Positions 5,634 to 19,474 of a stretch of DNA of 60,382 bases are shown here, piece after piece; the first letter of the stretch is position 1, and each line of letters opens with the position of its first letter. A model generated the notes under the pieces. That model did no database searches. It was not told where the DNA came from and worked only from the letters and a program-made list of their open reading frames with translations. The stretch is taken from the NCBI GenBank assembly GCA_022827625.1, contig JAJEIE010000007.1:1-60382 (forward strand), written 5' to 3'. Source of the stretch: Candidatus Poribacteria bacterium (GTDB lineage: Bacteria > Poribacteria > WGA-4E > WGA-3G). A program made the translations under genes and the position numbers.

Positions 5634-8417
5634 GTGGAAAGAAAAAAAGATGCTCAACTGATTCAGAATATTTTATTGGGTGACGACGCTGCATTCAACA
5701 CATTGGTCCAGAAGTACCAAAAAGGCGTTCACGCGCTTGCATGGCGGAAGATTGGTGACTTTCACTATGCCGAAGAGATTACGCAAGACACCTTCCTCCA
5801 AGCATACAACAAACTCCGGACGCTTAGAAACCCTGACCAATTTGCTGGCTGGCTCTACGTCATTGCCAGTCGGCTTTGCATCGATTGGAATCGGAAGCAA
5901 AAACCTGCGACGCAATCGCTGGAGGACACATCTGTGAAAGAAGTAGAGGGATCGGCGTATGCGCGTTATATATCGGAGAAACAGGAGACAGAAGCCCGGG
6001 AACGCCGTTATGAAATCGTTGAGCAACTTCTGGCAAGGCTGCCAGAGAGCGAACGTACAGTCGTCACACTCCACTATCTCGGCGAAATGACGGCACGGGA
6101 AATTGGAAAGTTTTTAGGTGTTTCTGTCCGAACGATTGACAGTCGTCTCCATCGGGCACGCAAACGTTTACAGGAAAAAGAAGAACTCTTGGTTCAAGAA
6201 GTTCTCGGTGGTGTTCAGTTATCGGCGAGTGTCAGCCAAAATATTATGCAGCAAATCGCTGACATGAAACTTACACCGACTCCGGTTTCAAAACCTTTGC
6301 TCCCTTGGGCGGCTTTTGGTGCAGCGGCGATTTTGCTTGTGCTCCTAATCGGATTTAGCAATCGATACCTCGTCCGTTTTCAGAAACCGTATAGTTTTGA
6401 GGCAACATCCAAACCGACGATCGAAATTATTGAAGCACCCGCTGTGCTTGATATTGACGCAAAACCGGCTGTGCGGAACCAAATCGGACGGGCTGATACC
6501 GAGGGTAAAAGCAGCGGGACCAGTGTGCAGATGGATGAAACGGTCTCAACGTCCAGGGCACTGGAGGATTCACGCGATTTTTCTTCAGCACAATGGATGC
6601 CGGATGCCGCATTACGTGCTGCGGTTCGAGAGGCGCTCACACTCCCTGAGTCTGTTCCTTTGACGAAGGAGCAGATGCAAGAACTACGGTATCTAACAGC
6701 CGGTGGAAAAGGGATTGCGGATATAAGGGGGCTGGAATTTGCCCAAAATTTAGTCCAGTTACATTTAGGCGATGCGGGTAATTATGTTACTGACTTAAGT
6801 CCGATCGCCACACTCACCGCCTTGACTCATCTCAATGTAGGAAGTAATCGAGTCGCAGATCTAAGACCGCTCGCCAACCTAACGCATCTAACCGGGTTAA
6901 GTCTCTGGAACAATCAAGTAACCGATGTATCTCCGTTGCGTTCGCTGACTGCTTTGACCTACCTGAATTTAGCTGACAATTATGTAAGTGATCTCACTCC
7001 GCTTGCGAATCTGATAAATTTGGACGAATTAGACCTTTTTGACAACGAAGTTAAAAATCTTGTGCCATTGTCGGGTTTGAGAGACCTAAATCACCTAATC
7101 CTTACATACAATCACGTTGAAGACTTAAGTCCGCTTGCGGAACTGATGAATTTACAAATACTATGGCTCAAAAAGAATCCAGTAAGAGATCTGCGTCCAC
7201 TCATGGGGTTGAATCTCACAGACCTTAAATACGACGGTTTATCATTGGCAGCAGAACAAATAGAATCTCCTGAGATATGGATGCCCGACCCTGTGTTGTG
7301 GATGGCGGTTCGGGGTGAACTGGGGCTGCTACCGGGTGTTCCGTTGACAAAAGAGAAGATGCAGAAGTTGACATATCTCGAGGCGCAAAATAGAGGCGTT
7401 ACCGACATAACAGGCTTAGCGTTTGCAACGAATCTCAGAGAACTCCACATGGGTCGGAATCCGATCACAGATTTATATCCACTTTCTAACTTGATAACGC
7501 TTGAAAGTTTGCATATCTGGAGCCTCTCTCCGAGTACGCCCAACCTTGATCTCCGTCCACTGACAAATCTCATCAACTTAAAAGCACTCTCTTTGGAGCG
7601 GAACGGGATTTCGGATATTCGTCTGCTTGCGGGGTTGAAGAAACTTCGCCTCTTGCATCTCACAGGTAATCAAATTGAGAATATCAGTCCGCTTTCGGGG
7701 CTAACTGAGTTGCGAACATTGTGGATCAAGGAGAATCCGATAACAGACTTGCGTCCACTCATAGGATTGCATCTCACAGACCTTAAATACGACGGTATAT
7801 TGCTGGACACAGAACAAACGGAACCTTCTGAGGTATGGATGCCCGACGCTGCGTTGTGGACGGCGGTTCGGGGTGAACTGGGGTTGTTACCGGGTGTTCC
7901 CTTGACAAAAGAGAAGATGCTGCGTCTGGAACGTATAGAAGTCAATTATAACGACACTCTTAACCTAACCGGTTTGGCGTTCGCTACGAATTTAAGGACC
8001 CTTACCCTTGATGGAAACAATCACATAACAGGGCTGCGTTCCATTGCCGATCTCATCAATCTCGTCGAGCTGCGTATTTGGCGACCGGAAGATGCGCCAC
8101 CGACGCATCTCGACATCCTTCCGCTGGCAAACCTTACCAATTTAGAAGAGCTCGTTATTGAGGGTTACGGGATCTCGGATATAAGCATTCTTGCCGACTT
8201 TATGAAACTTCAGCGGTTGTATCTCGAAAATAATCACATTGAGGATTTTTCGCCGCTCGCTGGACTGACAAATCTACGGGAGTTGCGGATTCGGAACAAC
8301 CGGGCAATTGACTTCCGTTCGCTCGTTCCTTTGAACTTGACCCTCTTTAGGTACGATGAGATCTATGAAGACCTACCCGCTGGAACTCCCGTCCTTGAGC
8401 GTGTTCGGAATAGGTGA
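5634..8417 (+). CDS. ECF RNA polymerase sigma factor fused through a membrane segment to leucine-rich repeats
   Basis: 927 residues, against ~180-200 for an ordinary ECF sigma factor. Region 2 spans about 9-85 (FNTLVQKYQKGVHALAWRKI, YAEEITQDTFLQAY, GWLYVIASRLCIDW). Region 4 spans about 125-182 (LLARLPESERTVVTLHYLGE, then the helix-turn-helix REIGKFLGVSVRTIDSRLHR). A single hydrophobic segment follows at about 224-242. The remaining ~680 residues should lie outside the inner membrane; they hold three modules, each opening with a WMPDxxL cap and PLTKExM and continuing with 22-residue LRRs (LxxLxLxxNxIxDLSPLAxL). The GTG start follows AAGGAG. Both sigma regions look complete, so it may direct transcription while tethered, or after proteolytic release; this is inference. 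The cytochrome/LRR gene starts 45 bases downstream. Confidence 0.93.
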   Translation: MERKKDAQLIQNILLGDDAAFNTLVQKYQKGVHALAWRKIGDFHYAEEITQDTFLQAYNKLRTLRNPDQFAGWLYVIASRLCIDWNRKQKPATQSLEDTSVKEVEGSAYARYISEKQETEARERRYEIVEQLLARLPESERTVVTLHYLGEMTAREIGKFLGVSVRTIDSRLHRARKRLQEKEELLVQEVLGGVQLSASVSQNIMQQIADMKLTPTPVSKPLLPWAAFGAAAILLVLLIGFSNRYLVRFQKPYSFEATSKPTIEIIEAPAVLDIDAKPAVRNQIGRADTEGKSSGTSVQMDETVSTSRALEDSRDFSSAQWMPDAALRAAVREALTLPESVPLTKEQMQELRYLTAGGKGIADIRGLEFAQNLVQLHLGDAGNYVTDLSPIATLTALTHLNVGSNRVADLRPLANLTHLTGLSLWNNQVTDVSPLRSLTALTYLNLADNYVSDLTPLANLINLDELDLFDNEVKNLVPLSGLRDLNHLILTYNHVEDLSPLAELMNLQILWLKKNPVRDLRPLMGLNLTDLKYDGLSLAAEQIESPEIWMPDPVLWMAVRGELGLLPGVPLTKEKMQKLTYLEAQNRGVTDITGLAFATNLRELHMGRNPITDLYPLSNLITLESLHIWSLSPSTPNLDLRPLTNLINLKALSLERNGISDIRLLAGLKKLRLLHLTGNQIENISPLSGLTELRTLWIKENPITDLRPLIGLHLTDLKYDGILLDTEQTEPSEVWMPDAALWTAVRGELGLLPGVPLTKEKMLRLERIEVNYNDTLNLTGLAFATNLRTLTLDGNNHITGLRSIADLINLVELRIWRPEDAPPTHLDILPLANLTNLEELVIEGYGISDISILADFMKLQRLYLENNHIEDFSPLAGLTNLRELRIRNNRAIDFRSLVPLNLTLFRYDEIYEDLPAGTPVLERVRNR

Positions 8418-8462: not shown

Positions 8463-9605
8463 ATGAAAACAGTAAAAACTCTTTTTTTAATCACGCTAAC
8501 TTTCATGGCGTTGGGATTCGGGAATGCTTATGCACAACAAAATCTCGCCCAACAGGCGTATACCATCTTTGAGCAAAGTTGCCTCAACTGCCACGGAGAA
8601 CACGGTGCCTACACTGAAGAAATCGTCATTGAGCATCTGGCACTTATTGAAACTGGTGCTGTTGTCCCGGGAAAACCTCTTGAATCTGAACTCTATAGGC
8701 GACTCCTTGAAGGCAATCCTGCGAAACGGATGCCGCTGGGTCAACCCCAACTTTCCGCCGCAGCGATTCTGACGGTTGGCAATTGGATTCAAGCAGGCGC
8801 ACCGGATTGGAAGGATACCTCTCAGGCAGAGGGTCGGTTCATTACACCTGAAGAAATGTTGGATAGCATCCAAAACCACGTTAGCTCGCTCTCACCTTTT
8901 GACCGTCCCTTCGCACGTTATTTTACGATGACCCATCTCTATAACGCTGGCGAGACGACTGAAGCACGCCATGCTTATCAACGCGCACTCTCTAAACTCG
9001 TGAACAGTCTCTCTTGGGGACGCGAAGTCATCAGACCACAACCCATTGACCCAGTAGAGACAATCTTCTATATTGACCTTCGAGACTACGAATGGGAGAT
9101 AGGAACCAACCGATGGACGCTGATTGAACAAGTCTATCCGTATAACATTGAGTTCGATGCCCCTACACAAACGAACCTCCGTGAAAAACTGACGCATCTA
9201 CGTCAGGAAATGAACTGTGAAGTGCCGTTTATTCATGTCGATTGGTTCCTTGCGACTGCCTCCTTGCCTCCCCTCTACCACGACATCCTCGGTCTCCCTG
9301 AGACTGATCGGGAGTTAGAGGCACGACTTGAGGTGAATGTCGTCGAAAATATCCGCAATGCTGCTGGCAAACGCGTCTGGCGTGCGGGTTTCAGCGATTC
9401 CGGTGTCTCAAATCACAACCGTGTTGTGGAACGGCATACCTCTCGGTATGGTGCGTATTGGAAAAGCTACGATTTTGCCGGGAGTGTCGGCACACAGAAT
9501 ATCTTTACACATCCACTCTCTTTCACACACGATGGTGGCGAGATTATCTTTAATCTACCCAACGGCTTGCAGGCATATCTTTTGGTTGATGCTGGCGGCA
9601 GTTGA
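8463..9605 (+). CDS. Exported c-type cytochrome domain protein, N-terminal part (ends at an in-frame TGA)
   Basis: 380 residues. A signal peptide (MKTVKTLFLITLTFMALGFGNAYAQ) is followed by a haem c site CLNCH (about residues 40-44) in the style of planctomycete PSCyt1 cytochromes (RMPLGQPQLS and NWIQAGAPDW follow). A ~250-residue all-periplasmic region ends in FNLPNGLQAYLLVDAGGS. The reading frame is closed by a single TGA (9603-9605) and then stays open in the same frame into the next gene. In homologues as I recall them this region reads through as GxRLDxAPxxIV...CxxCH, so this is probably the first part of one longer protein. It lies 45 bases after the sigma-LRR gene, in the same orientation. 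Confidence 0.85.
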   Translation: MKTVKTLFLITLTFMALGFGNAYAQQNLAQQAYTIFEQSCLNCHGEHGAYTEEIVIEHLALIETGAVVPGKPLESELYRRLLEGNPAKRMPLGQPQLSAAAILTVGNWIQAGAPDWKDTSQAEGRFITPEEMLDSIQNHVSSLSPFDRPFARYFTMTHLYNAGETTEARHAYQRALSKLVNSLSWGREVIRPQPIDPVETIFYIDLRDYEWEIGTNRWTLIEQVYPYNIEFDAPTQTNLREKLTHLRQEMNCEVPFIHVDWFLATASLPPLYHDILGLPETDRELEARLEVNVVENIRNAAGKRVWRAGFSDSGVSNHNRVVERHTSRYGAYWKSYDFAGSVGTQNIFTHPLSFTHDGGEIIFNLPNGLQAYLLVDAGGS

Positions 9606-9701: not shown

Positions 9702-12524
9702 ATGAAGACGTTTGAAGACGGTGTCCGTGCTGTTGTTGAGAAGAATCCGAATCCCCCGTTTGACAAGGCACGAGCCTTACAACTCTATACAGAGCAGTCT
9801 GTGCTGGACGGACTCGTGTTGGAGGATACCGAACGTTACCAACGCGCACTTGAAGCAGCAGGTGATGTATTTGGTGGGATTGAACCTGTGCAACGCTTCT
9901 ACGAAGCATTTCAAGGGCCCCTTGATGCTGCCCATGCTGCCGCTGCGGTTGGATTAGGAACCGAGGCATTCCTCCAAAGAATCCAGGGGAATGCGGGTTT
10001 GCAAAACTTGGGTTTATTGGTGCTGGAAAACGGTACGATGAAAAGAGATACGTGGACAGAGCAATTTAGTGAAGTCATTGTTGCACTGGGTTCTCCTGAC
10101 AGCAGTGTTCTTAAGCCGATTGTCCCACGGACGGAACGTATTCCTGGCGAGTCCGTTCACATTCCCGACCCGGTCCTCCGCTCAGCAATTGCAGAGACTC
10201 TTGGTAAGGCACCCAATGCCGCCATTACTATAGAGGAGATGGCAACATTGACGTACCTTGTTGCGGAAGCAATGGATATTCAAAATTTGGAGGGACTTCA
10301 GTTTGCAGCAAATCTCGAAGAGCTAAGACTTCGAGGTAATTCGCTCTCCGATTTATCCCCTCTGGCGGGGTTAACAACACTCAAAGAGGTAGAAATTTCC
10401 GGTGAGTCTCTATCGGACCTCTCTCCCCTCGCAGATTTGGTTAACTTGGAGGGCGTAGGGTTTTGGAAGACTTCCGTCTCAGACCTCTCTCCCCTGGCAG
10501 GATTAACAAAGCTCAGATGGTTAGAATTTAAGAACAGCCCTGTATCTGACTTATCACCGCTGGCGGGACTCACAAATTTGAAAAGACTGGAGACTTACGC
10601 CTCTAAGGACCTTGATCTCTCACCTTTAAAAGGATTGACAAAATTGGTAAAGTTAGGGATTGTTTCCAGTGGTGTATCAGATGTTTCGCCATTGGGTGGA
10701 TTGATTAATTTAGAATGGCTTTCGATCCAGAGTAACCGTCTTATATCGGACGTCTCGTCTTTGGTATCTTTGAAAAATCTGATAGAACTAAATCTCGCCA
10801 GAAACAAGATATCGGACGTAACACCCCTCGCAAATTTGCACAACTTGGAGGTGCTGCAGCTGCAGGAAAACAATATACCAGACCTATCACCTTTGGATGG
10901 GTTACGTGAGAATACGGAAATTCATTGGTTCAGTAATCCAGGTTTCCCAGAGGCAGGTCCCAAAATAGAGGGGCCCTGGTTATGGGTGTTGGTGCCGGGA
11001 GATGATTTTTCGGATGGTGTAGATTTGCTTTCACAAGCAAGTGACGGTGCTGTAACGGAATCGGTGGTCGCAACAAGCGGGGCAACGGAGGGAAGTCCTG
11101 TCGGAGAACATGTGTGGACATCGCACAAGCTCGCACCTACCGGTGGAGATAATATCCGTGCAATGCTAAACGCTATTGATGTAGAGATAGACAATGAGGC
11201 AGATAATGCCGTTTATGGTTCTCTCACTTTATATTCACCACGTGAACAGCAAACACGAATATTTGCCGGAAGCGATATTCTCCATAAGGTTTGGCTTAAT
11301 GGGGAGTTAGTTCATGAGAACCTTAGTTGGGTATGGGCTCGCGATTATCAAGATTATGCTCCTGTCACGTTGAAACGGGGTACAAATGTCTTATTGTTTG
11401 CGATTTACAGTTCCGGTGGAGAGTTTAGTGGCTATTTCGGGTTTGAACCCGACACTGAATATATGGTGATATCCCCTGGTACTGGCTTGGCACTCTCGAC
11501 AGATACAACAAGTGTTCGTGTGGGTGATACGTTCACAATTCGTATCAGCGCAGAAAAAGTTACAGACTTAGCAGGATGGCAATTCGACCTAACATTTGAT
11601 CCCGATGTACTTGAAGTGGTCGATGTGGACGAGGGCGGTTTTCTAAAGAGAGGCGGTCAAACAACCTTCTTTCAGCAGGGCGCGATTAATAACACTGCGG
11701 GAAGCATTGTAGGCTTAAGTTCAGCACTGATTTCCAAAAACGGCATCACCGGTACTGGAACACTATTGTCAGTGAGATTCTCTGCAAAGGCAGAAGGGAA
11801 CAGCCAAATAGCACTGCATAACTTTCAACTCGGTTCCAAAACCGGTGAAGCAATTCCTGCTGCCATGCGTCCGCTTACTATCACTGTAGAATCCAAACCA
11901 GCTTGGGATGTGAATGCAGACGGACAGGTCAGCATCTTAGATTTGATTCTCATTGCCCAAAATTTCGGAGAAGCGACATCTCCTAATTCACGAACCGATG
12001 TAAACCGCGATGGAGTCGTCAGCATTCTGGATCTTATTCTTGTCGCACAACACATGGGTGAATCAACGGAAGCAGCCGCGCCTTTTGCTATTGCAATAGA
12101 CAACGTGGAAGCACTTGATCCCATGATGATACAGGCATGGATAGAACGTGCGCAGGTTGAAGACGACGGTTCTGTTGCCTTTCAAGAGGGTATCGCTTAT
12201 CTCCAAAGTCTCTTGGCACTGCTCCTTCCTAAAGAGACAGCATTGCTGCCGAATTACCCAAATCCATTTAATCCAGAAACATGGATACCGTATCAGTTAG
12301 CGAACACCAGTGAGGTGACAATCACCATCTACGATGTGCGAGGGATACCTGTCCGGCAACTCAACCTCGGACATCAACATGCCGGTTATTACACAAACCG
12401 GAGTCGTGCTGCCTATTGGGATGGTCGGAACGAAATCGGTGAGCGCGTCGCGAGTGGTATCTATTTCTATCAATTCCGGGCAGATACCATCTCACATCTG
12501 CGGAAGATGCTTGTTTTGAAGTAG
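9702..12524 (+). CDS. LRR-cohesin-like-dockerin protein with Por-type C-terminal domain (C-terminal part of the split cytochrome protein)
   Basis: 940 residues counted from the ATG at 9702, though the frame is open from 9606. Order: the rest of the cytochrome-family region (about 1-150); an LRR block (about 155-405) opening with HIPDPVLRSAIAETLG and repeating DLSPLAGLTxL; a beta-rich region (about 420-590); a cohesin-like domain (VRVGDTFTIRISA, AGWQFDLTFDPDVLEV, about 600-725); and a type I dockerin with two calcium loops (DVNADGQVSILDL and DVNRDGVVSILDL). The end is a FlgD/Por-like domain opening NYPNPFNPETWIPYQL. No signal peptide exists in this part, so without read-through of the TGA it could not be exported, which fits a recent nonsense mutation or a recoding event. 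Cohesin and dockerin in one chain suggests self- or cross-assembly on the cell surface. Confidence 0.85.
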   Translation: MKTFEDGVRAVVEKNPNPPFDKARALQLYTEQSVLDGLVLEDTERYQRALEAAGDVFGGIEPVQRFYEAFQGPLDAAHAAAAVGLGTEAFLQRIQGNAGLQNLGLLVLENGTMKRDTWTEQFSEVIVALGSPDSSVLKPIVPRTERIPGESVHIPDPVLRSAIAETLGKAPNAAITIEEMATLTYLVAEAMDIQNLEGLQFAANLEELRLRGNSLSDLSPLAGLTTLKEVEISGESLSDLSPLADLVNLEGVGFWKTSVSDLSPLAGLTKLRWLEFKNSPVSDLSPLAGLTNLKRLETYASKDLDLSPLKGLTKLVKLGIVSSGVSDVSPLGGLINLEWLSIQSNRLISDVSSLVSLKNLIELNLARNKISDVTPLANLHNLEVLQLQENNIPDLSPLDGLRENTEIHWFSNPGFPEAGPKIEGPWLWVLVPGDDFSDGVDLLSQASDGAVTESVVATSGATEGSPVGEHVWTSHKLAPTGGDNIRAMLNAIDVEIDNEADNAVYGSLTLYSPREQQTRIFAGSDILHKVWLNGELVHENLSWVWARDYQDYAPVTLKRGTNVLLFAIYSSGGEFSGYFGFEPDTEYMVISPGTGLALSTDTTSVRVGDTFTIRISAEKVTDLAGWQFDLTFDPDVLEVVDVDEGGFLKRGGQTTFFQQGAINNTAGSIVGLSSALISKNGITGTGTLLSVRFSAKAEGNSQIALHNFQLGSKTGEAIPAAMRPLTITVESKPAWDVNADGQVSILDLILIAQNFGEATSPNSRTDVNRDGVVSILDLILVAQHMGESTEAAAPFAIAIDNVEALDPMMIQAWIERAQVEDDGSVAFQEGIAYLQSLLALLLPKETALLPNYPNPFNPETWIPYQLANTSEVTITIYDVRGIPVRQLNLGHQHAGYYTNRSRAAYWDGRNEIGERVASGIYFYQFRADTISHLRKMLVLK

Positions 12525-12791: not shown

Positions 12792-13403
12792 TTGAGAAGG
12801 ATTGGGATTACGAATCCCATTGCTATTGCACTCGTTGGCATTCTCATCACTTGTGTCTTGGTTTTTGTTGGATGCTCGCCTTTTGATGGGTATATTGCCC
12901 TTGATGCAGGATCGGGGTTGCTCCAACCAACATTCCGTATGTATGCCAATCCATATTTTCAAGAACGAGTGGGACGCATTACGAGTATTACAGTTTCAAA
13001 AAGCGAACACTTTTCTGGAGAGCAAAAACTAAAGGAACTTGAATTAAGATGGGACGATTCTCAAACGGTTTGGGACTTAGAATATAAATATACTGATAGC
13101 CTCATGAAGGCACTCTTGAAGCGGTTGTTGGGATTATCACAACCCGTTCCTCGTTTGACTTACGGGGAAGTGACACAGGGCTATGAGGAAAAAGTGAAAG
13201 CCGAACCTCTGGAACCCGGACAATCTTATTTTGTTGAGATTTGGGGGTATGGGAGGGGTATAGCGGCGTTCCATGGGACTCTGGAATTTATCATCCGTTT
13301 GGATGACACAGGTCGTCCTGATCGGCTGGAATATAGCTTGCCAGACGATATCTTTGAGAGGACGCGAGATGCGCTTAGGCTTAATCCAGGAGCACGCGAG
13401 TAG
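12792..13403 (+). CDS. Predicted lipoprotein of unknown function
   Basis: 203 residues. The N-terminus is a lipoprotein signal (MRRIGITNPIAIALVGILIT, then lipobox VFVGC with the lipidated Cys at about residue 28). The mature part is a mixed alpha/beta sequence with ELRWDDSQTVWDLEYKY, GQSYFVEIWGYGRGIAAF and LEYSLPDDIF. I recognise no family. The start is a TTG preceded by GAGG. The next lipoprotein starts nine bases after this stop with a strong Shine-Dalgarno in between, so the two form an operon. Membrane location is well supported; the role is unknown. Confidence 0.8.
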   Translation: MRRIGITNPIAIALVGILITCVLVFVGCSPFDGYIALDAGSGLLQPTFRMYANPYFQERVGRITSITVSKSEHFSGEQKLKELELRWDDSQTVWDLEYKYTDSLMKALLKRLLGLSQPVPRLTYGEVTQGYEEKVKAEPLEPGQSYFVEIWGYGRGIAAFHGTLEFIIRLDDTGRPDRLEYSLPDDIFERTRDALRLNPGARE

Positions 13404-13412
13404 GAGGTTTTT

Positions 13413-14729
13413 ATGCGTGTTTTGATAAAGGTCTTCACCGGAAGCGTTATTGGCGTTTTCACGATAGGGATGCTCGGGTGTGGGTGTCTTTTTCCGTCTA
13501 CTCCCTCCAACACGCTGATGAATCTGTACATTGATCTCCACACTGAAGCGGAATTCCTGCGGTATGATGGTAAATATAGAGAGGCGATTGAAAAGTATGA
13601 GCAAGCCTTTAAGATTCGTCCGCGTCCTACCGCTAATACAAAGGTCATTGATGTCAGCTACCTTACGCTGTTCAAATACCGTATCGCTTTTTGCTATGCT
13701 AAGTTGGCGGAAGCAGAAGGGGACGTTTCCCTCTATATCAAAGCCGAAGAGGTAGTGAAAGAGAGTTACCAAGCTGCGATACTCCGCTCTGATCAGATAG
13801 GTGTCCTCTATCTTTGGGGCTACATACTTTTCAAGCAGGAACGGTATGCGGAAGCCCGTGCCAAATTCGAGGAACTCCTTGAGATATCCCTGCAGGGTGG
13901 GTTCCATGATATTTTCGCTATGAATGCTATGGATGCGCTGAGGACAACGTATTTGGAATTAGGAGATGAAGCCGCCACCCCACGAGCATTTGAGCAGCTC
14001 GAGGAGCGACTTAAGATAGCCCTTCAGAATAGGGTTCCTGATCGTTTTCTTGAGGTCGCCTTGTACGGGCTTGGAGAAATGCATTTGGAACTGGAAGATG
14101 AAACCGCTGCACGCCGGGCATTTGGGCAGCTCGAGGCGTTACTTGAGACATCCGTACAAGGGGCAGTTCGTGATAGAAGCCTTGAGAGTTTCTCGTACTT
14201 CCACTATCTTGGGGACGCGTATTTGGAACTCGGAGATACGGATGCCGCTCGCCGGGCATTTGGGCGGTTCGAAGAGCTGCTTGAGACATTCGTACAGCAG
14301 GAAGCCCGGGATGTGAGTCTTGAGCGTTTCTGGGACTTTTACTATCTTGGTGAATCGTATTTGGAGTTGGGAGATAAAGTCGCCGCATTACGGGTATTTA
14401 GACGGTTTGAGGAACGCTTTGAGACCTCCTTGCAGCGTGGCGTTGATGACGGCCTTGCGTATATCTTGTCCACGCTTGGTGAATCGTATTTGGAGTTGGG
14501 AGATAAAACCGCTGCATTACGGATATTTAGGCGACTTGAGGAAATCCTCGAAATATCCTTGCAGCGTGAGGACCGAGAACGCAGCCTTGATTATGACTTG
14601 TACAGGCTTGGTGTCGCGTATATGGAACTTGGTGAAGAAGCCTCTGCCCAAAAGGTGTTTGTGGAGCTCCTGGAGCATTTCCCCGACTCGCTCTTCAAGG
14701 CAAAGGCGGAAGGCTTTCTTGGAAGGTAA
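13413..14729 (+). CDS. TPR-repeat lipoprotein
   Basis: 438 residues; ATG after AGGAGG. The lipobox region GMLGCGCLF puts the lipidated Cys near residue 23. Tetratricopeptide repeats follow: a first pair (YDGKYREAIEKYEQAFKI, QERYAEARAKFEELLEI) and then about six recent copies of a ~42-residue unit (YLELGDxxAALRxFxRxEExLETSLQ). The late copies are very similar to each other at DNA level (GAATCGTATTTGGAGTTGGG occurs twice), pointing to recent internal expansion. TPRs are protein-binding scaffolds, so a membrane-attached assembly role is likely, partner unknown. It is co-transcribed with the preceding lipoprotein and sits just before the duplicated locus at 14.8 kb. Confidence 0.85.
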   Translation: MRVLIKVFTGSVIGVFTIGMLGCGCLFPSTPSNTLMNLYIDLHTEAEFLRYDGKYREAIEKYEQAFKIRPRPTANTKVIDVSYLTLFKYRIAFCYAKLAEAEGDVSLYIKAEEVVKESYQAAILRSDQIGVLYLWGYILFKQERYAEARAKFEELLEISLQGGFHDIFAMNAMDALRTTYLELGDEAATPRAFEQLEERLKIALQNRVPDRFLEVALYGLGEMHLELEDETAARRAFGQLEALLETSVQGAVRDRSLESFSYFHYLGDAYLELGDTDAARRAFGRFEELLETFVQQEARDVSLERFWDFYYLGESYLELGDKVAALRVFRRFEERFETSLQRGVDDGLAYILSTLGESYLELGDKTAALRIFRRLEEILEISLQREDRERSLDYDLYRLGVAYMELGEEASAQKVFVELLEHFPDSLFKAKAEGFLGR

Positions 14730-14777: not shown

Positions 14778-15353
14778 ATGGAATCTGTTAAGTCTTTTAT
14801 CCTCAATGTTTTTTCTGTACTGATTATATTTTTCTTCTTTTCTTGTATTGCTTCTGCTGTTTTGTATGTTATCATGTTTCTCCGCTGGCTTTTCTTGAGA
14901 CCGAAATGTTCCAACTGTGCCAAAAGGATAGGAGAAGAAACTATCAGGTGTCCACGCTGTGGGAGTCTCCTGAAAGAGGAACAGCCTCAAGAAGAACTGA
15001 ATCCTGAACTTTACGCCCGCATCAAAACTTTGGTGGTAGAAACGACGGGTTTGGCATCGGAGGAAGAACTCACGCCCGAAACACACTTGGCGGACGACTT
15101 AGGGATAGCCGGGGACGATGGTTATGAACTGCTTGAGGCATTTTGTGAAGCGTTCGAGATCCAAAATATGGAGGAGATTGAGCCCGCGGAATATTTCGGT
15201 ATAGAGGGAGGACCTAACCCATTTGAGATATATTTTTTTCTCTACGACTTGGTGTTTGAGAAAGAAAAACAACGTTATTCTTTCTCACCCCTTTACTTAC
15301 GCGATTTAGTCAAATCGGCTGAAGCGGGAAGATGGATACCGCCAGAGACATAG
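14778..15353 (+). CDS. Membrane zinc-ribbon protein with acyl-carrier-like (DUF1493-type) domain, copy 1
   Basis: 191 residues in three parts: a long N-terminal hydrophobic segment (about 5-40), a zinc ribbon with two Cys pairs (CSNCAKRI and CPRCGSLL, about 44-65), and an acyl-carrier-protein-like domain (about 75-140) with LTPETHLADDLGIAGDDGYE and LLEAFCEAFEI. True carriers have a DS(L) phosphopantetheine site at the helix-2 start; here it reads GDDGYE, with no serine, as I recall for DUF1493. It is therefore probably a binding module, not a carrier. The C-terminal tail (LRDLVKSAEAGRWIPPET) is almost identical in the paralogue at 17058. The gene and its flanks are part of a duplicated block. 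Confidence 0.8.
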   Translation: MESVKSFILNVFSVLIIFFFFSCIASAVLYVIMFLRWLFLRPKCSNCAKRIGEETIRCPRCGSLLKEEQPQEELNPELYARIKTLVVETTGLASEEELTPETHLADDLGIAGDDGYELLEAFCEAFEIQNMEEIEPAEYFGIEGGPNPFEIYFFLYDLVFEKEKQRYSFSPLYLRDLVKSAEAGRWIPPET

Positions 15354-15426
15354 TTTTAAGAAATGGCATCAAAGTTTGCAAACTACAATCAGATCTACAC
15401 ACAATCTAATAAAAAGGCACTACAAC

Positions 15427-16191
15427 ATGGAACCACGATTTACACGTGGTGAATATTGGCTATTGGAAACTGTTGTTGAGCATGAATTTGAAGTCTGTGC
15501 CCTTATTGACAGCAGTCTTGAATCATTCTTGGATAAAAAAGGACATGGGTTAACGCGCGTATCCCTCGTTGATACCTTCCATCGATTGCTCTCTTCAGGG
15601 CTAATTTATGCCAAAAGCGAGATGAACGGTTCTATCTCAACGAAGGAGCAAATCGAACTCGCTTTGGAGGAACGCGTACCTTGGGACACCCACCACGTTT
15701 TTATTGCAACCGACGGGGACATCGAAATTGCCCCAGATGAATCCAAACCCGCGCGCATGGAACCCGTAGATGTGAGAAAAATCACGTACTATGGGCTGAC
15801 GCAGGAAGGCGGCGCGCAATGGGAAGCCTTCGCCGCACCCGACTGGGAAAAATACATAGCCGAAAGTTTTCAGTCAGAAGATGCGGCGGGTGAATATGAA
15901 ATGTGGGAACTGATTTGTGGAGATAAAAATTGGCGTTATGCTGATAAAGATTGTCTCGATCCTCCGCAAAATTGGCTTGAAGCGTACATTGAATCTATGT
16001 GTTTCTACGACCAAAAGGAGGTGATTTTAGAGTCGGTCGAGTGGGATTATGTTACGCCGTGGCAAGCGACGTACTGGAAACGCCTCTCAGGTGGAGATAG
16101 AGTCCGCTTTCGGTGTCGGGACAAGCGCAACGGGGAGAATTTTGAACCGCCTCCCCCTCCGTTTGCAGAAGACTGGTATGCTTGGCATTAG
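15427..16191 (+). CDS. Unnamed family, copy 1 of 3 (MEPRFTRGEYW; winged-helix-like N-terminal half)
   Basis: 254 residues from the ATG at 15427; the frame is open further upstream, but that part is the repeated spacer. Soluble, no signal. Three blocks are shared with the paralogues at 16294 and 18803: MEPRFTRGEYWLLET at the N-terminus; KKGHGLTRVSLVDTFHRLLS with SGLIYA; and YGLTQEGGAQWEAFAAPDW. The second and third blocks have the pattern of a winged helix (recognition helix, GLI turn, then a wing ending LTxxG), which is my inference. The C-terminal third (CFYD, VEWDYVTPWQATYWKRL) is unfamiliar. This copy carries an insert at about residues 85-115 (THHVFIATDGDIEIA). I know no function for the family. 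Confidence 0.75.
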   Translation: MEPRFTRGEYWLLETVVEHEFEVCALIDSSLESFLDKKGHGLTRVSLVDTFHRLLSSGLIYAKSEMNGSISTKEQIELALEERVPWDTHHVFIATDGDIEIAPDESKPARMEPVDVRKITYYGLTQEGGAQWEAFAAPDWEKYIAESFQSEDAAGEYEMWELICGDKNWRYADKDCLDPPQNWLEAYIESMCFYDQKEVILESVEWDYVTPWQATYWKRLSGGDRVRFRCRDKRNGENFEPPPPPFAEDWYAWH

Positions 16192-16293
16192 AGAAACAGA
16201 TTGGATTTATTTACCCGCAAGGTCAAGAATAATTTAAAGGCGTATCGCACGAAGATGAGTTAAAAGGTGCATCATTTCACAAGGAACAACGGT

Positions 16294-16986
16294 ATGGAAC
16301 CACGATTTACCCGCGGTGAGTATTGGATACTTGAGACTGCTGTCGAGCACCTATTTCCAGTCTCTGCACTCAGTGATAGCGATAGCGATCTTGAGTTACT
16401 TCTAAATAAAAAAGGGCACGGGTTAACGCGGACCGCGCTCGTTGAAACCCTTCATCGACTCCTTTCTTCTGGACTGATTTATGCGGAAAGCCGCGTTGGC
16501 TTTTCAGATGAAGCGGTGGCTGTTGTTTCAACGAAGGAACAAATTGAACTGGCACTGGATGAACCCGAATCTTGGAGGGGTGTTCCCATAGAGGAGAGAA
16601 AAGTCACGTTCTATGGGCTGACGCAGGAGGGCGGCGCACAATGGGAAGTTTTCGCCGCACCCGACTGGCAAAAATATATAGACGCGGGTTTTCAATTGTC
16701 AGATGACAGTGAATATATAATGTGGGAGATGATTTGTGCGGATAAAGCGTGGCTCGAAAGATATTTTGAATCTCATTGTTTTTATAACCCAGATGAGGTG
16801 TTTTTAGAATCCGTTGAGCGGGATTATATTACACCGTGGGACGCAACATATTGGAAACAGCTCGACGGAGCACATAGAATCCGATTTCGGGAGCCAGACG
16901 AGAGCGAGAAGGAAAATTTAGGAGTGTCTCCGCCTTCGTTCCCGGATATGGGCTATTTTGATAAACTTTGGTGTGCTTGGCGATAG
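16294..16986 (+). CDS. Unnamed family, copy 2 of 3 (MEPRFTRGEYW)
   Basis: 230 residues; ATG at 16294 after AAGGAAC. It has the same three conserved blocks as its neighbour at 15427 (MEPRFTRGEYWILET, KKGHGLTRTALVETLHRLLS, YGLTQEGGAQWEVFAAPDW) and the same C-terminal signature (HCFYNPDEVFLESVERDYIT, PWDATYWKQL). Compared with copy 1 it lacks the acidic insert but has SRVGFSDEAVAVVSTKEQIE. Its C-terminal HRIRF and LWCAW endings are closer to copy 3. No membrane segment or catalytic signature is apparent. Tandem placement with copy 1 indicates local duplication followed by divergence. Confidence 0.75.
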   Translation: MEPRFTRGEYWILETAVEHLFPVSALSDSDSDLELLLNKKGHGLTRTALVETLHRLLSSGLIYAESRVGFSDEAVAVVSTKEQIELALDEPESWRGVPIEERKVTFYGLTQEGGAQWEVFAAPDWQKYIDAGFQLSDDSEYIMWEMICADKAWLERYFESHCFYNPDEVFLESVERDYITPWDATYWKQLDGAHRIRFREPDESEKENLGVSPPSFPDMGYFDKLWCAWR

Positions 16987-17057
16987 AAAATAGATTGGAT
17001 TTACGTACCTTCAATGTCAACATAACTTTCGGATCCCTCAACGAAGGGGTGACATAA

Positions 17058-17651
17058 ATGGAATCCGTTAAGTCTTTTCTTCTCCTTGTTTTTTGTGCGA
17101 TCGTTCTGCTGCCGTTCATTATTTTTATTCCTCTTGCTTTATATGGGGCGATTCTGTTTTTCTACGAATCAACGAAATGTTCCAATTGCGCAAAAGCCAT
17201 AAGAGGTGAGGCTATCAGGTGTCCACGTTGTGGGAGTCCCCTAACAGCGGAAGTGCCTGAAGAAAAAATAAATGCTGAACTTTACGCCCGTGTTAGTGCT
17301 TTCGTAGCTGATCAAAGAGGCGAAGCAGGGGAAAAACTTACGCCAGATACGCGATTGCAGGACGATTTAGGGGTAGACGGTGACGACGGTTTTGAACTGA
17401 TTGAAGCATTTTGTGAAGAATTTGAAATCCAAAATACAAGTGAGATTGATCTCACGAAACATTTCGCTCCAGAGGGGTGTAACCCATTTGAAATATATGT
17501 GTGGCTATATTATGAAATACCTATTGACCTATATTATTGGGTGGTTGGCAGAGAAAAACCCAGAGAAGAATCAAACAGTGATATACCCCTTACTTTACGA
17601 GACTTAGTCAAATCGGCTGAAGCGAAAAGGTGGATACCGCCGGAGACATAG
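17058..17651 (+). CDS. Membrane zinc-ribbon protein with acyl-carrier-like (DUF1493-type) domain, copy 2
   Basis: 197 residues, a clear paralogue of the gene at 14778 from first to last residue: MESVKSFLL plus a hydrophobic segment, zinc ribbon (CSNCAKAI, CPRCGSPL), carrier-like domain (LTPDTRLQDDLGVDGDDGFE, LIEAFCEEFEIQN) and tail LRDLVKSAEAKRWIPPET. Again no serine stands at the phosphopantetheine position (DGDDGFE). The DNA just after the stop (the ATCAAAGTTTGCAAACTACA spacer) also matches the one after copy 1, so the duplicated unit included the intergenic region. It probably sits on the inner membrane with the ribbon and carrier-like domain in the cytoplasm. Confidence 0.8.
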   Translation: MESVKSFLLLVFCAIVLLPFIIFIPLALYGAILFFYESTKCSNCAKAIRGEAIRCPRCGSPLTAEVPEEKINAELYARVSAFVADQRGEAGEKLTPDTRLQDDLGVDGDDGFELIEAFCEEFEIQNTSEIDLTKHFAPEGCNPFEIYVWLYYEIPIDLYYWVVGREKPREESNSDIPLTLRDLVKSAEAKRWIPPET

Positions 17652-17724
17652 TTTTGAGTAGTGGTATCAAAGTTTGCAAACTACAATCAGACTGACACAC
17701 ACTTTTATACAAGGAGCATCTCTA

Positions 17725-18186
17725 ATGTTGAGATTACGCGAAAAGTTGAAATATATGGCTTTGGGAGGGTTGATAGTCCTCGCCGGATTTGTATTTGGTA
17801 ATAAGAATAAGAATACCGAAGCACAATCTGGCGCTGAAACTGTTAATGAACTGACTGTTAGAAATATGATTGTACTTGAGAGTATAAGAGTGATTAACGA
17901 CGATAATGTGCCGCAAGTTGTAATCGGTTGGAATGAAAATGGTGGAAACGTATCAGCCCACAGTCCAAGGGGGCAGGCTGCGCTCAGCGTTGGTGAACAT
18001 GGCGGACTTATACAAGTCGGCAACGCAGAAGGAAAAATTGGGGCGCAAGTCACAATGAATGAGAATGGCGGTACCATAGTCGTGCGTTCCATAAGCGGAT
18101 CGGGTGCTGCTGCATTGGCTATATACGAGGGAAACGGCGTTGTTTACACAAGAGATCGACTCGGAAACATAAGTGCCCTTGATTGA
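17725..18186 (+). CDS. Small signal-anchored beta-repeat protein, copy 1
   Basis: 153 residues; ATG at 17725, eight bases after AAGGAG. The N-terminus MLRLREKLKYM is followed by a hydrophobic segment (ALGGLIVLAGFVFGN) that should act as a signal or anchor. The rest has irregular Gly-rich repeats of about 18-20 residues (ENGGNVSAHSPRGQAALSV, EHGGLIQVGNAEGKIGAQV, ENGGTIVVRS). Such short hydrophobic/Gly repeats often form beta-solenoids, an inference here. The segment ELTVRNMIVLESIRVIND is conserved in the next gene. Exported or membrane-anchored, function unknown. Confidence 0.75.
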   Translation: MLRLREKLKYMALGGLIVLAGFVFGNKNKNTEAQSGAETVNELTVRNMIVLESIRVINDDNVPQVVIGWNENGGNVSAHSPRGQAALSVGEHGGLIQVGNAEGKIGAQVTMNENGGTIVVRSISGSGAAALAIYEGNGVVYTRDRLGNISALD

Positions 18187-18214
18187 AATAACTTTGTAAA
18201 AAGGAGCATCTATA

Positions 18215-18703
18215 GTGTTTAGACTACGTGAAAAGTTGAAATATATGTTTTTAACCGGAGTATTGGCAATTGCTGGCTTTATGCTCGGTAACGTGAACAA
18301 TGACACGAAAGCACAACTTGGATCCGAGATGGTTGATACATTGACTGTCCGGAAGTTAACCGTGCTTGAAGACATAGCCGTAATAGCGGACAATGGGGAG
18401 CCTCGAGTTGTTATATCTTGGCATGAACTGAGTGGAGACGTATCGTGTTACGGTCCGGGCAAAATGGATGTTGCTGATAGGGCGAGTCTGTTGGTCGGTC
18501 AGTTGGGTGGCATTGCAGGGGTTACCGATAGAAACGCCAGTGGTGCGAGTCTGACGCTTGGTACGGAGGGTGGCGGCGTTACCATTTTTCCTATAGAGGG
18601 TCCTTTGGCTGCGAAAGGCGGTGCTGCCTTAGGCATAGATGAAGGTGATGGTTTTGTCTCCACAATAGATAGTTCTGGTGAACGCCGCGCATTGGAAGAG
18701 TAG
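18215..18703 (+). CDS. Small signal-anchored beta-repeat protein, copy 2
   Basis: 162 residues; GTG start after AAGGAG. A tandem paralogue of the gene 28 bases upstream, sharing RLREKLKYM, a hydrophobic segment, TLTVRKLTVLEDIAVI and Gly-rich repeats (LLVGQLGGIAGVTDRNASG, TEGGGVTIF) and a similar ending (DEGDGFVSTIDSSGERRALE). It differs in CYGPGKMDVADRASL. Its position between copies of the MEPRF family makes it part of the same duplicated locus. Likely exported; function not recognisable. Confidence 0.75.
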   Translation: MFRLREKLKYMFLTGVLAIAGFMLGNVNNDTKAQLGSEMVDTLTVRKLTVLEDIAVIADNGEPRVVISWHELSGDVSCYGPGKMDVADRASLLVGQLGGIAGVTDRNASGASLTLGTEGGGVTIFPIEGPLAAKGGAALGIDEGDGFVSTIDSSGERRALEE

Positions 18704-18802
18704 GTAGCAGAATTTTGAAAAGTCGCACTTGGGGACTCTCTCGGCTCATTTTACAAGGCTGAGATGGAACGCCTAATTCAAAAACAATAAAGGAACTACA
18801 AC

Positions 18803-19474
18803 ATGGAACCACGATTTACACGCGGCGAGTATTGGCTACTGGGAACCGCCGTTGAGAATCAATGGCCAGTCCGTCTGCTCATTGATAGCGATCTTGAGTT
18901 ACACGTAAATAAAACGGGGCACGGGTTAACGCGAGAAGCACTCATTGAGACGCTCCATCGCCTCATCGCTTTAGGGCTGATCTTTGCTCAAAATGAGGTG
19001 GACCCACCTATTTCAACGCCCCAACAAATCGAACGCGCCCTGGATGAAACACATTGGCGGTTTGCCACCGGAGGTGAGAGAGAGAAAAAAAACACGTCCT
19101 ATGGGCTGACACAGGAAGGGGGCGCACAATGGGAGGCGTTCGCCGCACCCGACTGGCAAAAATACATACGCACGAGTCGTCATTTAAATGACCGAGATGA
19201 CAGCGACCCGAGCATCCGGATAGCGATTTGTGCCGATAAATCATGGCTTGAAAGCTACTTTAAATCTAAATGTCTTTATGACCCAATGCATGTGTCTTTA
19301 GGGACGGAGGAGTGGGATTATATCGCACCGTGGGACGTAACGTATTGGAAACAACTCGAGGGGGCACATAGAGTCCGATTTCAGGCACGAGACGTGACCG
19401 AAGCACAAAACGTGAAACGGTATCCGTTGTGGCACCCGCAATTTTTTCGTAGTCTTTGGTGTGCTTGGAAATAG
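18803..19474 (+). CDS. Unnamed family, copy 3 of 3 (MEPRFTRGEYW)
   Basis: 223 residues; ATG after AAAGGAACTACAAC. It keeps the family blocks: MEPRFTRGEYWLLGT, KTGHGLTREALIETLHRLIA with LGLIFA, YGLTQEGGAQWEAFAAPDW, a C-terminal DYIAPWDVTYWKQLEGAHRV and the ending LWCAWK. The stretch after the APDW block is more diverged (RTSRHLNDRDDSDPSIRIAI). It ends 23 bases from the convergent ubiX gene. The N-terminal half again suggests a winged-helix fold. Three copies interleaved with two other duplicated families argue for a shared process. Confidence 0.75.
   Translation: MEPRFTRGEYWLLGTAVENQWPVRLLIDSDLELHVNKTGHGLTREALIETLHRLIALGLIFAQNEVDPPISTPQQIERALDETHWRFATGGEREKKNTSYGLTQEGGAQWEAFAAPDWQKYIRTSRHLNDRDDSDPSIRIAICADKSWLESYFKSKCLYDPMHVSLGTEEWDYIAPWDVTYWKQLEGAHRVRFQARDVTEAQNVKRYPLWHPQFFRSLWCAWK

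Follow-up and report, generated by a model that had tools for sequence, protein, structure and literature searches.

The locus at positions 14,778 to 19,474 of a 60,382-nucleotide stretch of Candidatus Poribacteria DNA (contig JAJEIE010000007.1; the whole stretch is referred to as the window) is an example of an accessory island that is confined to one genus of Candidatus Poribacteria. The island consists of a cassette of two lipoprotein genes (LP203 and a tetratricopeptide repeat (TPR) lipoprotein), an inner-membrane-type protein combining a zinc ribbon with a DUF1493 domain (ZnR-DUF1493), tandem genes of a family named MEPRF and, in some genomes, tandem beta-repeat genes. It occupies a few chromosomal sites by leucine-rich repeat (LRR) genes, and changes as its genes are duplicated or partly deleted and, it appears, as paralogues recombine in a conversion-like way. 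As to function, we tentatively favour a protective, orphan-immunity-like array; two further readings, an envelope sensing module and the absence of any joint system, are close rivals. The source assembly (G000) is a 5.0 Mb draft with the window on its contig 24, and was compared with metagenome-assembled genomes of Candidatus Poribacteria in sets of 85 genomes of the phylum (22 genera), 59 of the family and 38 of the genus. The features of the region are:

9702..12524, + strand: large LRR protein with cohesin, dockerin and FlgD-like C-terminal sorting domains (Pfam LRR_4, Cohesin, Dockerin_1, FlgD_ig)
12792..13403, + strand: LP203, lipoprotein, core partner (lipobox-like VGC; alignment of homologues)
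13413..14729, + strand: TPR-repeat lipoprotein, core partner (Pfam TPR)
14778..15353, + strand: ZnR-DUF1493 copy 1 (PF07377, 35.1 bits; match to acyl carrier proteins; Ser to Gly; hydropathy)
15368..15387, + strand: duplicated spacer copy 1, ATCAAAGTTTGCAAACTACA, holding a 12-bp palindrome
15427..16191, + strand: MEPRF copy 1, predicted cytoplasmic (no transmembrane-like segment; orthologue in G043)
16294..16986, + strand: MEPRF copy 2 (orthologues in G043, G050 and G022)
17058..17651, + strand: ZnR-DUF1493 copy 2 (PF07377, 32.7 bits)
17666..17685, + strand: duplicated spacer copy 2, ATCAAAGTTTGCAAACTACA
17725..18186, + strand: anchored beta-repeat protein 1 (basic N-terminus, hydrophobic stretch, repeat domain)
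18215..18703, + strand: anchored beta-repeat protein 2, GTG start
18803..19474, + strand: MEPRF copy 3, the most divergent of the three

All seven genes between 14778 and 19474 lie on the + strand and fall into two ZnR-DUF1493, three MEPRF and two anchored beta-repeat genes, as a preliminary description of this DNA had stated. The local expansion of small families that it proposed is borne out by the paralogue DNA, which shows up as direct-repeat families of 67-84% identity; the encoded proteins share 61-65% (MEPRF, pairs compared), 59% (DUF1493) and 47% (beta-repeat) identity. The three-family unit that it delimited was not retained. Its boundary excludes LP203 and the TPR lipoprotein, the two most constant partners, which lie upstream, and it includes the beta-repeat family, which is present in 48 of the 59 family genomes, commonly as a single gene remote from the other island families. 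Wide occurrence of the families without each other had been named as speaking against a joint system, and for the beta-repeat member this is what was found, since its genes mostly stand elsewhere; as an obligate partner it was rejected. MEPRF and ZnR-DUF1493, in contrast, do co-occur, within one genus. Extra tandem beta-repeat copies were located near DUF1493 in G045, G048 and G054. The beta-repeat proteins, whose repeat domain comes after a basic N-terminus and hydrophobic stretch, matched no family above the Pfam cut-off.

The spacer reported to be duplicated after both zinc-ribbon genes was confirmed at both positions. Its core, AAGTTTGCAAACTACA, was searched in the whole 5.0 Mb assembly with at most one mismatch and occurs in the two duplicated spacers only, so that common descent is enough to explain the pair, and a genome-wide regulatory motif was rejected for the palindrome (AGTTTGCAAACT, 2 observed against 0.18 expected in the window).

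Within the phylum, MEPRF was detected in 12 of the 85 genomes (in some as stubs only) and DUF1493 in 13, each in 1 of the 22 genera; LP203 is carried by 13 of the 59 family genomes, all from the same single genus, and 11 of these 13 also carry DUF1493. Among the 38 genomes of the genus, DUF1493 is present in eight of the nine that carry a substantial MEPRF gene (Fisher p = 2e-4, uncorrected for shared ancestry). A broad scan of genome contigs, which detects close relatives only, returned MEPRF from Poribacteria alone, and no relatives were obtained from IMG/VR viral contigs and no credible ones from plasmids. LP203 was likewise absent from the plasmids and viral contigs searched. Open reading frames were called with a simple procedure, which genes opposite long antisense frames can escape, as some beta-repeat genes did. 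Many loci stop at contig edges, so gene absences next to such edges are uninformative.

In the neighbourhoods of relatives, LP203-TPR, ZnR-DUF1493 and MEPRF cluster at several chromosomal sites in variable order and with differing flanking core genes: beside a UbiX-like gene in G000, G043, G045 and G052, and beside thiamine/RsmB-like genes in G022, G026, G046 and G050 (gene names from inspection of the sequence alone). Relatives of the LRR protein encoded at 9702-12524 stand at the head of many islands, and LRR genes adjoin the islands in relatives. The TPR lipoprotein gene is almost always directly 3' of LP203 (15 adjacent pairs), DUF1493 is usually the next or previous gene to this pair (six TPR-DUF1493 and five DUF1493-LP203 adjacencies), and MEPRF genes are tandem (eleven adjacencies); a few neighbouring stretches are represented by overlapping loci, so that some of these counts include one adjacency twice. 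These data bear on the reading that a recombination-prone, LRR-associated site gathers lineage-specific paralogues, which would share an address but no common pathway. The high variability of gene order, the location of most beta-repeat genes elsewhere, and the occurrence of DUF1493 without MEPRF (G035, G053, G054) and of MEPRF without a full DUF1493 (G058) speak for it, whereas the preserved LP203-TPR adjacency and a co-occurrence of MEPRF, DUF1493 and LP203 well above chance at different sites speak against it. Although a close rival, we regard it as rather unlikely.

The MEPRF tree unites genes that hold corresponding positions in different species: the window's copies 1 and 2 group with those of G043, G022 and G050, and a triplet is common to G026, G046 and G050. 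The MEPRF paralogues are therefore old. Ratios of nonsynonymous to synonymous substitution rates (dN/dS) between orthologues in the closest relative were 0.16-0.20 for MEPRF (0.16 for copy 1 against G043), 0.17-0.18 for LP203 and the TPR lipoprotein, and 0.42 for DUF1493 copy 2, compared with 0.02-0.08 for four flanking genes. By these ratios the island genes are under purifying selection, which again speaks against a merely shared address. The synonymous rate (dS) between the same two genomes was 0.06-0.16 for island genes and 0.16-0.49 for flanking genes, a difference that might reflect a recent exchange of the island, though few genes lie behind the comparison.

Losses are also visible. G043 is without DUF1493 copy 1, the first 20 nt of the gene remaining joined to the spacer, and G045 and G052 retain an 83% identical DUF1493 copy at the site that is empty in G043; loss of the copy in G043 is the simpler reading. 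MEPRF stubs were found in G036, G040 and G045, and DUF1493 remnants in G039 and G056. In all three MEPRF paralogue pairs, dS drops approximately 2-4 fold in a central block around YGLTQEGGAQWE (short windows of 40 codons), resembling the expected effect of gene conversion. With its old paralogues, purifying selection, conversion-like blocks and deletion scars, the island is a birth-and-death accessory array.

The two carrier-like domains, counted in the preliminary description among three unknown families, belong to the Pfam family DUF1493 (PF07377), with scores of 35.1 and 32.7 bits at a cut-off of 21 bits, which all 16 Poribacteria matches exceed. The description was accurate in finding the phosphopantetheine serine missing: on alignment with solved acyl carrier proteins (ACPs), this residue corresponds to a Gly that is invariant in 12 of 12 homologues. 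The domain resembles ACPs in sequence over about 50-80 residues (best hmmsearch match 2.7e-7 to 2ehs, partial length), and differs from them in this Gly and in its membrane and zinc-ribbon extensions. From the N-terminus, ZnR-DUF1493 is composed of a hydrophobic segment (about 30-40 residues), a CxxC...CxxC zinc ribbon and the ACP-like domain; the basic residues that follow the hydrophobic segment suggest a cytoplasmic orientation of ribbon and domain.

Outside Poribacteria, a single DUF1493 relative was found, on a plasmid of Candidatus Thiodictyon, and none in the phages or viral contigs searched. It shares the DLGxxGDD motif with the Poribacteria proteins and likewise has Gly at the position of the phosphopantetheine serine. 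The Thiodictyon member is free-standing (about 101-107 aa), unlike the Poribacteria domain, which is fused behind a hydrophobic segment and zinc ribbon and encoded in a multi-gene island. The Thiodictyon gene directly follows that of a 'MafI family immunity protein', the order downstream of an Rhs gene being MafI immunity gene, DUF1493 gene, hypothetical protein gene and ankyrin-repeat gene (L153:6633-8404).

The match to ACPs raises the prospect of a carrier-protein pathway, in which a substrate-loaded ACP-like domain would be served by MEPRF and the lipoproteins as enzymes or acceptors. The invariant Ser to Gly change contradicts phosphopantetheine chemistry and rules against this and any housekeeping reading, and the island is without any enzyme of such a pathway; we consider it very improbable.

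The MEPRF proteins, which retain long invariant motifs and have no transmembrane-like segment, gave no match in Pfam, NCBIfam, PADLOC or PDB. Their AlphaFold2 model is of moderate quality (pLDDT 63), and a fold search with it returned nothing at E <= 0.001 (Foldseek best E 0.05), a PadR regulator being a weak match (prob 0.54, E 0.64). The family had been called winged-helix-like. Its secondary structure, with helices first and then a strand, and the PadR match point faintly in this direction; because the pLDDT is only 63 and no significant profile or fold match was obtained, the term is kept as a lead. LP203, for which 12-17 homologues were aligned, represents an undescribed, predicted beta-rich family; its AlphaFold2 model (pLDDT 70) likewise gave nothing at E <= 0.001, with Ig/FnIII/CopC-like matches at E >= 0.01 only.

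The second close rival is an envelope sensing or surface module. The LRR protein, LP203, the TPR lipoprotein and the beta-repeat proteins would act at the periplasm or surface, ZnR-DUF1493 would relay state across the inner membrane, and MEPRF would be a winged-helix-like cytoplasmic regulator, possibly under a nearby membrane-anchored extracytoplasmic function (ECF) sigma-LRR factor. The predicted localisations of the island proteins do span the envelope, LP203 is weakly like Ig/FnIII-like sandwiches, the MEPRF start and its PadR match fit a regulator, and fusions of ECF sigma factor, transmembrane segment and sensor adjoin islands in G000, G022, G046, G050, G054 and G058. Yet Pfam gave no significant DNA-binding domain match, several diverged MEPRF copies in tandem would be unusual for a single regulator, and a dedicated link between sigma factor and island is doubtful, because the genome holds approximately 24 close copies of the sigma fusion against one island. 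We hold the module to be possible, if somewhat doubtful.

The fusion in the window (5634-8417) unites in a single polypeptide ECF sigma regions 2 and 4, an LRR domain and, joining them, a transmembrane-like helix, and its product is possibly a membrane-anchored sigma factor with a built-in outside sensor. In a G046 copy, a glycoside-hydrolase-15-like domain replaces the LRR domain.

The orphan-immunity-like reading of the island is favoured because of the immunity neighbourhood of the Thiodictyon gene and the pattern of copy turnover. Its confinement to one genus, the co-occurrence and clustering of its families, and the age and purifying selection of its paralogues also count in favour. Each of the diverged paralogues would be matched to one variant of an incoming factor, which it would bind and neutralise where that factor acts. 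MEPRF would do so in the cytoplasm and the lipoproteins in the envelope, and DUF1493 would work at the inner-membrane face, its ACP-like fold being a binding module and no carrier. Copies would be retained or dropped as the threat shifts. As in orphan-immunity arrays, tandem non-identical paralogues with copy-number turnover are present. Searches of the small island proteins (Pfam, NCBIfam, PDB, PADLOC) brought up no catalytic family. The closest parallel is the esaG/tsaI strings of Staphylococcus aureus (PMC9484751), which also consist of non-identical paralogues, change in copy number and need no toxin nearby; block recombination has been reported for these type VII secretion system EsaG immunity arrays (PMC9484751), and the dS dip in the shared central block of MEPRF, a possible recombination-like signal, resembles it. 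The likeness noted is one of behaviour rather than sequence. The Poribacteria island mixes several unrelated families and is without a known toxin. The position of the Thiodictyon gene, next to a MafI-family immunity gene and with an Rhs gene upstream, also recalls Rhs/Maf-type toxin-immunity clusters.

Several points weigh against protection. The link to immunity depends on a single neighbourhood in another phylum, and no immunity or defence family was matched in Pfam, NCBIfam or PADLOC. RHS repeats, the only kind of polymorphic toxin searched for, were absent from all 59 family genomes, so no cognate Rhs-type toxin was found. The long invariant MEPRF motifs fit a conserved activity common to the copies no less well than diversification for toxin binding, and the central dip in dS could alternatively stem from other constraints in short windows. 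The earlier statement that the locus holds no toxin or nuclease was upheld, none being matched, and PADLOC defence models matched 0 of 9 proteins, so that anti-phage defence by known families was rejected. Given that no toxin, immunity or phage-defence match was obtained, the function stays inferred. A bolder version would have LP203, the TPR lipoprotein, ZnR-DUF1493 and MEPRF form an undescribed envelope-spanning protective system. Incoming factors would be neutralised by a new family of cytoplasmic proteins and a dead acyl-carrier-like domain, and DUF1493 would be an immunity domain generally. We deem this version improbable.

Further genes were noted around the islands. In the window, the protein encoded at 8463-9605, between the sigma-LRR and LRR genes, looks secreted and bears a planctomycete-type cytochrome C (PSCyt1) domain, and the product of 9702-12524 unites LRR, cohesin, dockerin and FlgD/Por-type C-terminal domains in one protein. 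The islands of relatives contain another small tandem family that is not in the window (about 170 aa, signal peptide and hydrophobic segments; L109:8657-9178, L119:6238-6846, L110:7544-8062), and in G046 and G050 tandem secreted-looking proteins of about 340-520 aa lie between MEPRF triplets and LRR genes (L101:888-6196, L100:10477-12562); the member tested of each family had no Pfam match.

Should a recombination-prone site be all that the genes have in common, the island would represent ordinary lineage-specific gene turnover. DUF1493 is an unexplained family, scarcely covered in the literature searched, and its repeated pairing in the island with a second unknown family and with lipoproteins that stay the same, together with its context beside immunity genes, provides a concrete hypothesis, testable in laboratory strains. 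The islands illustrate the diversification of envelope-linked genes in the largely uncultured Poribacteria.

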